From positions 124,001 to 188,000 of the forward strand of contig JANINS010000003.1 in the NCBI GenBank assembly GCA_024508725.1: DNA of 64,000 nt. The letters are read 5' to 3'. Below, one piece after another: positions 14,579-16,119 of this stretch (position 1 is its first letter; each line of letters begins with the position of its first letter). The notes under the pieces are model-generated. The model searched no databases. It was not told where the DNA came from and worked only from the letters and a program-made list of their open reading frames with translations. The position numbers and the translations under genes were made by a program. This DNA is from Chitinophagaceae bacterium. GTDB taxonomy: Bacteria > Bacteroidota > Bacteroidia > Chitinophagales > Chitinophagaceae.

Positions 14579-14651
14579 ATATTATGTTGCAGCGAAGTCA
14601 TTATCTTACTAGATTAGTGTTTAAACTAAATTAGGTTGATACGTAGCAATA

Positions 14652-15113
14652 CTATTCTATCCAGTCAAATAAATATTTCTCATTGTATTCAATATTGAGC
14701 TTCTTCAACAACATCAAATACTCCTCTTTGAAAGATTTAGTTTTATGATGATTCGGCTGATTCATTACATAGTTCACCACTTTATCAATATGGCTATGAC
14801 TGTAAGAAAATGCTCCAAAGCCTTCCTGCCATGAAAATTTGCCAACGATAAGATTATGTTCGTTAATAAATTTTGTAGACTCAGACTTAACAATTCTTAC
14901 AAGATCAGAAATCGCAAGATCAGGCTTTAGGCTAACAAAAAGGTGCAGATGATCTGGCATACAGTAGATAGCATACACCTTATAACCTTTGTTCTGTATA
15001 ATACCTGTAATGTATTTTTCAACCCTGTCCCTAATCTGCTCATTTATAAGATTGCCTCTGCCTTTAACAGCAAAAACAATTTGAACATACAATTGAGTGT
15101 AGGTATTTGGCAT
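14652..15113 (-). CDS. REP-associated tyrosine transposase (IS200-like, TnpA_REP type)
   Basis: A 153-residue Y1-type HUH transposase. The HUH motif is HLHLF within CMPDHLHLFVSLKP, and a candidate catalytic Tyr is in the helix VVNYVMNQPNHHKTK, followed by the SFKEEY segment usual in this Bacteroidota group. It is a single gene without a partner tnpB. Four palindromes of one type lie immediately upstream (15123-15292), as expected for domesticated RAYTs acting on REP sequences. The start was set at the ATG at 15113; the ATG at 15140 lies against the first palindrome and adds nine unrelated residues. Confidence 0.9.
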   Translation of the reverse strand: MPNTYTQLYVQIVFAVKGRGNLINEQIRDRVEKYITGIIQNKGYKVYAIYCMPDHLHLFVSLKPDLAISDLVRIVKSESTKFINEHNLIVGKFSWQEGFGAFSYSHSHIDKVVNYVMNQPNHHKTKSFKEEYLMLLKKLNIEYNEKYLFDWIE

Positions 15114-15122
15114 AAAAAGTAT

Positions 15123-15138
15123 GGCTCCTAACGGAGCC
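15123..15138. repeat. REP-like palindrome 1 (GGCTCC-TAAC-GGAGCC)
   Basis: A perfect 6-bp inverted repeat with a 4-nt centre, 9 nt upstream of the transposase start. It is the first of four related palindromes. Confidence 0.85.
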
Positions 15139-15174
15139 AAATTACTTAAATGATTCTTATTACTATTAAGGTAA

Positions 15175-15189
15175 GGCTCCTCTGGAGCC
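15175..15189. repeat. REP-like palindrome 2 (GGCTCC-TCT-GGAGCC)
   Basis: A perfect 6-bp inverted repeat with a 3-nt centre; second unit of the cluster beside the REP-type transposase. Confidence 0.85.
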
Positions 15190-15230
15190 TGGTAACATTC
15201 AAAAAGTTAATTATAATTTCAAATCACCGA

Positions 15231-15245
15231 GACTCCATCGGAGTC
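15231..15245. repeat. REP-like palindrome 3 (GACTCC-ATC-GGAGTC)
   Basis: Same layout as its neighbours but with a compensated change (G-A-C/G-T-C) that keeps pairing. This indicates that the structure, not only the sequence, is conserved. Confidence 0.85.
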
Positions 15246-15277
15246 ATAGCTTAATAGAAATATAAAAAGGATTTTTT

Positions 15278-15292
15278 GGCTCCGTAGGAGCC
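15278..15292. repeat. REP-like palindrome 4 (GGCTCC-GTA-GGAGCC)
   Basis: A perfect 6-bp inverted repeat, 8 nt beyond the stop of the pRiA4b ORF-3-like gene. It is the last unit of the cluster. Confidence 0.85.
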
Positions 15293-15300
15293 GTACATTT

Positions 15301-15873
15301 CTAATAATCTTCTCCGCTTTCCTCTCCACCACCTGAATCACTTCCAAACTCGTCGCTTTCCGTTTCGCCTTCTTCTCCTTCTTCACCAAAACCTTCCATG
15401 CTATTCAGGTCGTACTTTTCTTCTATCTCATTGAACTTATTTCCAAGCAAACTTTTTGTGCCGTATTGTTGCGGACCAATGCCTTCTGTTCTGGATGTTG
15501 CAGGATAAATGAGCTTAGGATTTTCTTCTTTGCTAACGTTGATCAGTTCAACAAGGAAAGTCCAGTTCTTATCAAAGTCGTACACGTAAATGAACTTCTG
15601 ATTCGTATCTCTTATCTCACTTCCAATGGTTGTTTGTTCCATGATCAGCGGTTCTGCACGATAATCTTTATCGTACTTTTCTAAACTGATCTCACGTCCA
15701 CGTTGCCAGTTATCGTTACTGCGGTAAAAAGTTGCCTTATGTTTATTGTCAAACTCAAACGCTTTCAAAATTGCATAGTGAAGGTCTTGAAAGGATTGGG
15801 TGTGTTTGATCACGATATCACGGTAAACACTATCATCGTCTTCGTAATATGCTCTGAACTTGAGTATCGCCAT
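15301..15873 (-). CDS. Plasmid pRiA4b ORF-3-like protein
   Basis: A 190-residue protein. Residues 1-140 fit the pRiA4b ORF-3/IS1096 TnpR-like fold: a start like AILKFRAYYEDDDSVYRDI, the block SFQDLHYAILKAFEF, and a YVYDFDKNWTFLVEL segment near residue 95 where the family has YxYDFGDxW. The final 30 residues are almost wholly acidic, Gly and Ser. The family is linked historically to mobile elements but its function is not established. Linkage to the adjacent transposase may be coincidence. Confidence 0.8.
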   Translation of the reverse strand: MAILKFRAYYEDDDSVYRDIVIKHTQSFQDLHYAILKAFEFDNKHKATFYRSNDNWQRGREISLEKYDKDYRAEPLIMEQTTIGSEIRDTNQKFIYVYDFDKNWTFLVELINVSKEENPKLIYPATSRTEGIGPQQYGTKSLLGNKFNEIEEKYDLNSMEGFGEEGEEGETESDEFGSDSGGGEESGEDY

Positions 15874-15936
15874 TCAATTACTTTTCTAATGTTAGATACG
15901 GTTGGGTTGCCAGCTTTTGTTTTTCAATTGATCTTC

Positions 15937-16058
15937 GTTGTGTCACTCACTTGTACGTTCGGAACTTTGTTCAGCTGACGTGAGCCGTAAATGGTGAGTC
16001 GTGAAGCTTAGCTCACGATTGACGATTCACGATTCTTCAGTACAAGAGTGCGACGCAA
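15937..16058. repeat. Full palindromic unit of the dispersed GTTGCGTCGCAC repeat
   Basis: The left arm (15937-15957) starts GTTGTGTCACTCACTTGTAC and continues TTCGGAACTTTGTTCAGC. The right arm (16040-16058) is GTACAAGAGTGCGACGCAA. Internal direct repeats of CACGATT(G/C)ACGATT type resemble those in the 7492-7608 copy. The unit fills most of the gap between the ORF-3-like gene and cca. Confidence 0.8.
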
Positions 16059-16119
16059 GGAACGATGACCAAAGAAGTAAAGCTGACTTCACAACCAAAC
16101 TATCGTCGAAAATACGATC

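Follow-up and report, generated by a model that had tools for sequence, protein, structure and literature searches.

Because known REPtrons are remote from IS200, they leave the question of how an insertion-sequence enzyme comes to be paired with small palindromes. This question is raised by a Y1 transposase gene of a Chitinophagaceae bacterium that lies, with four palindromes upstream, in a 64,000-nucleotide stretch of DNA (the whole stretch that was analysed, referred to as the window). An earlier note on this DNA had described a lone REP-type transposase, or RAYT, with palindromes of its own type; that interpretation was partly supported. With a probability of roughly 0.7, the locus is read here as REPtron-like: an enzyme of TnpA_Y1 subclass 1.2, on the IS200/IS605 side, is accompanied by bipartite, tagged hairpin repeats of its own.

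The tnpA_Y1 gene occupies positions 14652..15113 of the minus strand, with a probable ATG start at 15113 and a stop at 14652, and encodes a Y1/HUH protein of 153 amino acids that was characterised with Pfam, NCBIfam, an alignment and AlphaFold2. Its HUH motif is DHLH, followed by WQ and by the tyrosine motif YVMNQPNHH. The protein scored 92.7 bits against Pfam Y1_Tnp, 75.3 bits against the NCBIfam IS200 model (cut-off, 55) and 38.5 bits against REP_Tyr_transpos (cut-off, 80). Both of the latter models matched all 22 aligned relatives, the REP-transposase model more weakly at best (best E, 1.5e-11) than the IS200 model (best E, 4e-23), and D54-H55-x-H57, W95-Q96 and Y115-x3-Q119-x2-H122-H123 were invariant in the 22 sequences (alignment A1). 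Y---Q--HH is the published mark of TnpA_Y1 subclass 1.2, a group described as having ∼148 amino acids, a low genomic copy number and hosts that are mostly Bacteroidetes or Cyanobacteria (PMC6006769). The window gene, at 153 amino acids and with three diverged members in its own genome, agrees with this description; some genomes of the phylum had 8 to 12 matches. A sequence-profile search of the PDB returned eight matches at E ≤ 0.01, which were ISDra2, IS608 and other transposases, with ISDra2 and IS608-type TnpA closest and TnpA_REP (4ER8) not among them. The AlphaFold2 model (pLDDT, 92) gave its lowest fold-search E values with ISDra2 TnpA (2e-8), while 4ER8 was ranked 30th of 30, with the worst E value, among fold matches at E ≤ 0.001. 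The query TM-score of 4ER8 (0.61) was unsurpassed and equal to the best, so the predicted fold alone does not discriminate between IS200 and TnpA_REP. As judged by motif and family score, the window enzyme is a TnpA_Y1 of subclass 1.2, on the IS200/IS605 side of the family.

The transposase is not a lone one, since three genes with the subclass 1.2 motif were present in its own genome (3.88 Mb, eight contigs), the member nearest to the window protein being 58% identical. The third of these genes (motif YINNQEVHH; C4:967541-967879, L084 5467-5892, minus strand) had beside it another palindrome of its own, CTCCGGCAT-N2-ATGCCGGAG, in three copies, together with a CCAGCC hairpin. A different transposase of the same genome, a class-2-like Y1 gene (motif YIHLNP; C3:206114-206305, L085 4866-5372, minus strand), was likewise found next to palindromes of its own, namely CCAGCC/GGCTGG hairpins.

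The four palindromes upstream of the gene were confirmed at 15123-15138, 15175-15189, 15231-15245 and 15278-15292, as was the compensated base change previously reported for one of them, which is the third. The form GGCTCC-N3/4-GGAGCC is exact in three of the four and gave no match in 100 dinucleotide shuffles of the window; only 11 GC-rich 6-bp hairpins with loops of 3 to 4 nt occur in the 64 kb, and 4 of them fall within these 170 bp. Together they form two back-to-back copies of a single unit, H1-TAG-H2. Unit B (minus strand, 15189 to 15123) is directed toward the gene and consists of H1 (15175..15189; GGCTCC-AGA-GGAGCC, tag toward the gene), a TAG tag at +10 from H1 (15163..15165, in CTTAATAG) and H2 (15123..15138; GGCTCC-GTTA-GGAGCC in gene sense), which ends 9 nt before the ATG. 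Unit A (15231-15292, plus strand) points away and consists of H1 with the compensated change (15231..15245; GACTCC-ATC-GGAGTC, tag away from the gene), a TAG tag at +10 (15255..15257, in CTTAATAGAA) and H2 (15278..15292; GGCTCC-GTA-GGAGCC), followed by GTAC. The leader (15114..15300) with its two divergent units is one large imperfect inverted repeat, with a self inverted match of 70% and a DNA fold of −35.1 kcal/mol (z, −5.9) that was equalled by 0 of 200 shuffles. No recognisable unit was found downstream of the gene at the window locus.

The grammar of the unit was derived from two sets of loci. Of 195 genomes of the family that were searched, 82 had a match at 1e-20, and the top-scoring loci were taken, so that the loci are best-scoring matches and not a random sample. 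The family set comprised 86 loci with the gene (the top of the list plus stretches of the own genome). The second set comprised the best 80 of 573 matches plus 30 further ones, which were mostly but not only from Bacteroidota and included some same-family records. L099 and L084 were left out of the family counts, and L185 and L204 were left out of the second set before tags were counted. As duplicates or near-identical loci, L149 (100% identical to L020 of the family set), L187, L198 and L209 were left out of the counts of 104 and 188 loci; palindrome densities, the 475-hairpin consensus and the layout counts of 192 loci still include some of the dropped loci.

Palindromes were concentrated at the gene, with 149 within 250 bp in the 86 loci (3.45/kb, versus 0.31/kb at 2 to 6 kb; control, 0.49 and 0.18). 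For non-coding DNA the densities were 9.93/kb within 250 bp and 0.98/kb at 1.5 to 6 kb, versus 0.91 and 0.31 for a matched control. An orientation-latent motif search of the family relatives, blind to any expected sequence, picked out a box on the 3′ side of the hairpin, with TAG at its end. Among 225 gene-near hairpins of the family set, TAG was at +10 in 100 and at any other offset in 0 to 10; for hairpins more than 1 kb from the gene, TAG was at +10 in 12 of 185. The result was replicated in the second set (104 loci and 631 hairpins, duplicates removed), where TAG occurred 250 times at +10 versus 3 to 19 times at other offsets; for hairpins located 1 to 3 kb away, TAG was at +10 in 10 of 224. 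One or more tagged hairpins lay no further than 600 bp from the gene at 85 of the 104 loci, and 75 of 84 loci of the family set were tagged, leaving 19 and 9 untagged loci, respectively. By protein identity, the more distant subclass 1.2 genes were tagged in 8 of 9 cases at 38 to 42%, 0 of 2 at 44 to 45% and 1 of 10 at 33 to 37%. Hairpins such as AGCCCTGAAAGGGCG were seen beside the most distant of these genes (L274 to L282 and L223; 33 to 37% identity), which may use another mark than the +10 tag.

Alignment of 475 tagged hairpins from 163 loci gave the consensus A.RYYCC-RNA-GGRRY.G-ACATGTTTRTAGAAA, with a stem of 5 to 6 bp that frequently has an A.G foot, a loop of 3 nt (146 of 163 by locus weight) and a conserved box from +1 to +14 around (A/G)TAG. 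The spacer between H1 and H2 peaked at 33 to 37 nt in the family set. The unit can be written as H1 (RYYCC stem, usually with the loop RNA), 9 nt, TAG, ∼22 nt and H2. A lone palindrome was rejected as the unit on the +10 tag and the H1-H2 spacing. The claim of own-type palindromes held insofar as they are real and go with the gene, but the element is a two-hairpin unit with TAG 3′ of H1. In the 5′ flank of the same 475 hairpins, no conserved GT[AG]G or other tetranucleotide was found (≤0.18 bits per column). An IS608-like guide on the 5′ side of the hairpin was rejected on this lack of conservation; the largest mutual information was that of pairing of the foot, and no rule for pairing between guide and tag emerged.

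These features bear on whether the locus is a class 2 RAYT (TnpA_REP) of the canonical kind, accompanied by the usual REPs with a GTAG tag. Membership of the HUH/Y1 family, low copy number in this genome, own-type palindromes beside the gene and elsewhere, the weak match to the REP-transposase model and a TM-score to 4ER8 no lower than that to IS200 enzymes are all compatible with a RAYT. Such an enzyme should, however, have an NP-type motif in place of Y---Q--HH, a REP_Tyr_transpos score above the cut-off and GT[AG]G conserved 5′ of the hairpin rather than a tag at +10 on the 3′ side. Filing with the class 2 RAYTs, and with it the name given in the earlier note, was rejected on motif, score and tag position, and a canonical RAYT is regarded as very improbable.

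Tagged hairpins clustered 60 to 130 nt from both gene ends (192 loci). At 55 to 130 nt on either side, 168 tags were directed toward the gene and 22 away from it (188 distinct loci). An inward-tagged H1 was present on at least one gene side at 119 of the 188 loci, on both sides at 42 and in the full four-hairpin layout at 27; none of the four hairpins was at its expected place at 41 of 192 loci. In the fullest layout each gene end has one unit, the two being inverted, H2 lying nearest to the gene and the tag facing inward. An ordinary autonomous IS200/IS605-type insertion sequence, with the hairpins as its ends, could account for tagged hairpins on both sides of the gene at these 42 loci, for the IS200 family score above cut-off and for the absence of gene and hairpins from the site in relatives (see below). 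Its expected end structure is different, as the end units here are mutually inverted, unlike the hairpins of IS608, which are described as both being on one strand (PMC5934647). Moreover, the own-genome members are diverged, the nearest having the 58% identity given above, and the near-identical same-genome pair that was examined, in genome G123, has inverted ends and 9-bp repeats. An autonomous insertion sequence is consequently considered unlikely.

The position of the hairpins could also reflect a function in RNA, as terminators or leader hairpins regulating tnpA, unrelated to any processing of DNA. A hairpin was located 8 to 50 nt before the ATG at 87 of 192 loci, and the one nearest to the window gene is followed, in gene sense, by four nucleotides and then five T. 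Against this reading, like hairpins were located 8 to 50 nt after the stop at 97 of the 192 loci, copies were present far from the gene and the +10 tag is left unexplained; RNA features as the whole explanation are thus highly unlikely. Under the REPtron-like reading, the same hairpins may damp translation of the enzyme, given the 87 loci with a hairpin shortly before the start codon.

A search of the own genome for the GGCTCC palindrome, as proposed in the earlier note, did detect further copies (six exact ones, three of them at the locus), and CTCC-N3-GGAG was present at 29 places versus 2 for the reversed control. The dialect of the window, GGAG-N-C-N4-CTTAATAG, had five exact matches, comprising the two at the gene and three dispersed on the same contig. 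The own genome had no copies of this dialect with one mismatch, and the 31 matches with two mismatches were not in excess over the control (60 matches in all). All three dispersed units had the stem type and the CTTAATAGAA box seen at the window and matched the window over ∼70 bp at 76 to 79%, that is, over the unit itself, as single direct doublets. A generic pattern, CC-N3-GG-N13-TAGAA, was not in excess in this genome (11 versus 12 control hits). Spread in the own genome was small, amounting to only three dispersed units.

Across the family, the pattern CC-N3-GG-N7-TRTTNRTAG had a mean of 5.20 hits in the 82 gene-positive genomes (reversed control, 1.78) and of 1.39 in the 113 gene-negative genomes (control, 1.42; p = 1.7e-8 versus gene-positive). 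Five or more hits were present in 30 of 82 and 2 of 113 genomes, respectively, counts that miss dialects such as that of the own genome (G000), which the TRTTNRTAG pattern does not fit (0 hits). Two genomes scored as gene-less, G077 and G183, had five and seven tagged-hairpin hits and may hold a diverged or lost gene. The earlier note had named two outcomes that would speak against it, an absence of further palindromes in the genome and palindromes equally common in genomes without the gene; given the further copies and the lack of an excess in gene-less genomes, measured with the tagged-hairpin pattern and not with GGCTCC itself, neither was observed. The five richest of the 195 genomes had 20 to 29 hits. 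Hits were located away from the gene in G055 (20 of 20), G089 (19 of 19), G165 (9 of 10, the list giving a single one of the two places of the gene in this genome) and G057 (8 of 11), and all 6 listed of the 8 hits in G045 were at the gene; some of the dispersed hits in these genomes are chance hits. Two loci of G089 (L228 and L229) were mosaic arrays, resembling BIMEs, of TGCCCC tagged units with AGCCC, AACCCC and AGCCCT hairpins.

Element distance tracked protein distance (Mantel r = 0.545, 0 of 999 permutations). For 37 of 39 paralogues, the elements resembled those beside the nearest protein of a different genome more than those of the same-genome sibling, the window locus being one of the two exceptions. 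Judged by these distances, gene and units travel together, co-evolution and linkage being inseparable by either test.

In another reading, the Y1 gene and the hairpin units are carried as passengers by different mobile elements, of DDE or unknown type, and are not moved by the enzyme. On contig 6 of G123, two 781-bp copies (L265 and L266; 98.5% identical) of a more distant subclass 1.2 gene have imperfect inverted ends of ∼16 bp and perfect 9-bp direct repeats. Inverted ends together with 9-bp direct repeats are marks of DDE-type transposition. Movement there was hence probably not by the Y1 enzyme, the gene probably riding on a DDE-type element, and these copies were rejected as proof of autonomous transposition. 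They were the one near-identical mobile pair found, with none among the own-genome matches. In G055, dispersed composites (L210 to L222), several of them of the four-hairpin form H1-H2-H2′-H1′ and of ∼210 bp, have longer inverted ends around ATGTCATTTAGTTAAG. The dispersed units of this genome are AGCTCC/TGCTCC, of TCCTGTTTGTAG type, a dialect unlike those beside both its tagged genes (AATCCC at L054 and TTGCCC at L098), so that no cognate gene was found for them. TA as a target repeat at the G055 ends was rejected, as no more than 9 of 19 ends were flanked by TA, while others were flanked by CA/TG. The passenger reading draws on both genomes, but the end sequences differ between G123 and G055. 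In addition, in a search for terminal inverted repeats beyond the hairpins, over 160 bp outward from 47 two-ended loci, scores exceeded the 99% null level only through further hairpin units (five loci). The match of own-genome copies over the ∼70-bp unit only also argues against it, and neither the +10 tag nor the gene link is explained by it. Transport as passengers is therefore judged quite unlikely as a general account.

At the window, gene and hairpins lie in an intergenic segment of 722 bp (14579..15300), which was compared with same-genus genome G068 and other family genomes. The adjacent pRiA4b ORF-3-like gene (15301..15873, minus strand; Pfam PF07929), which the earlier note had listed as nearest neighbour, is indeed present but is a conserved host gene found in 57 of 60 family genomes and not a part of the element. 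In G068, the pRiA4b-like gene and miaA are 30 bp apart, without tnpA, as opposed to 722 bp in the window; this 30-bp interval is diverged from the window, and the insertion borders are therefore approximate. Of the 57 genomes that have the pRiA4b-like gene, 30 were used to compare the site. In 18 of the 29 other family genomes, the two genes were close together without tnpA, the remaining 11 being uninformative, and tnpA was absent from the stretch covered in all 29. As the site lacks the gene in G068 and relatives, gene and hairpins most simply arrived in this lineage, apparently by insertion between two core genes. A functional link between tnpA and the pRiA4b-like gene was rejected, the latter being conserved without the transposase. 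Between the pRiA4b-like gene and the gene for the CCA-adding enzyme there is a dispersed repeat (15909-16098), with at least ∼44 further own-genome matches (25 to 128 bp, 76 to 100% identity; 40 candidate regions scored) and three in G068.

The unit, its tag and spacing, the link to the gene, the copies away from genes and the lineage-specific presence of the gene were all read from sequence, and this part of the REPtron-like reading is solid, having been replicated in the second set; it corrects the earlier family name and extends the published description of the subclass. How the system would work is proposed by analogy. Like IS608, ISDra2 and E. coli TnpA_REP, the enzyme would bind the hairpin in single-stranded DNA, on the lagging strand or in a cruciform, and the box from +1 to +14 around (A/G)TAG would serve as guide and/or cleavage element. 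By analogy with IS608 (PMC5934647) and TnpA_REP (PMC8266576), cutting would take place at or near the tag, and occasionally a two-hairpin unit would be excised, or a copy of it placed elsewhere, in trans, along the lines proposed for RAYT/REPIN systems. Hairpin binding, tag cleavage and spread driven by Y1 are in this sense inferred from known enzymes. A broader proposal, for which the chances are put at slightly below even, is that IS200-type transposases became a REPtron a second time, independently, in subclass 1.2. Each of its gene lineages in Bacteroidota would have its own dialect of H1-N9-TAG-N22-H2, inverted around the gene and read via a 3′ tag, not a 5′ GTAG, and would still be seeding copies in gene-bearing genomes.

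Published subclass 1.2 (Quentin et al., 2018; PMC6006769) shares with the window gene DHxH, WQ, Y---Q--HH, a length of ∼150 amino acids and a Bacteroidetes host. The survey's table has the entry "no" under REPs for subclass 1.2, and its text describes the genes as generally without IS200-type ends (PMC6006769), in contrast to the tagged hairpins beside 85/104 and 75/84 loci here; such hairpins are a correction to the published description and not a criterion of membership. The automatic REP search of the survey took as its basis REP families that have GT[AG]G 0 to 2 nt 5′ of a 7- to 20-bp stem (PMC6006769), and a search with these requirements would pass over units with TAG at +10. In the open-access literature (including PMC6006769, PMC8266576, PMC3733652, PMC5934647, PMC12306157, PMC3116915 and PMC2817692; subscription journals were largely outside the search, and supplementary tables may list such hairpins), no description of tagged hairpins for subclass 1.2 was found. 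A group on the IS200 side, reported to be without REPs, thus presents REP-like units by the hundreds with a new tag geometry, from which annotators of Bacteroidota genomes also gain a simple rule for many short palindromes. Since the dialects are lineage specific, enzyme and DNA could be swapped between lineages in vitro to read out recognition.

The REPtrons of E. coli and Pseudomonas (RAYT/TnpA_REP with REPs and REPINs) resemble the present system in that a Y1 enzyme has palindromes of its own next to it, these occur as doublets and also in other places, and their type tracks the enzyme. They differ in protein subclass and in their tag, which is GTAG 0 to 2 nt 5′ rather than (A/G)TAG 9 to 12 nt 3′. 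Unlike in REPtrons, the stem here is of 5 to 6 bp with a frequent A.G foot, and the H1-H2 doublet is direct, the doublets then being inverted around the gene. A REPIN is an inverted REP doublet; the inverted H1-H2/H2′-H1′ composites of G055 have this arrangement, while the copies in the own genome are single direct doublets. Subclass 2.6, with its "atypical secondary structures" (PMC6006769), is similar in that Bacteroidetes Y1 genes are flanked by hairpins without GT[AG]G and copies occur elsewhere, but its protein is of class 2, with a YIH[QN]NP motif unlike that of the window protein, and the passages of the survey consulted on it mention no +10 tag. IS608 and ISDra2 TnpA (IS200/IS605), the nearest to the window protein in PDB sequence and in fold-search E value, recognise folded single-stranded ends, a likeness that is drawn here by analogy. 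Unlike theirs, the ends here are inverted and bipartite, with no conserved tetranucleotide 5′ of the hairpin, and the same-strand, non-inverted end hairpins of IS200/IS605 (subclass 1.1) are at variance with the predominance of tags pointing toward the gene.
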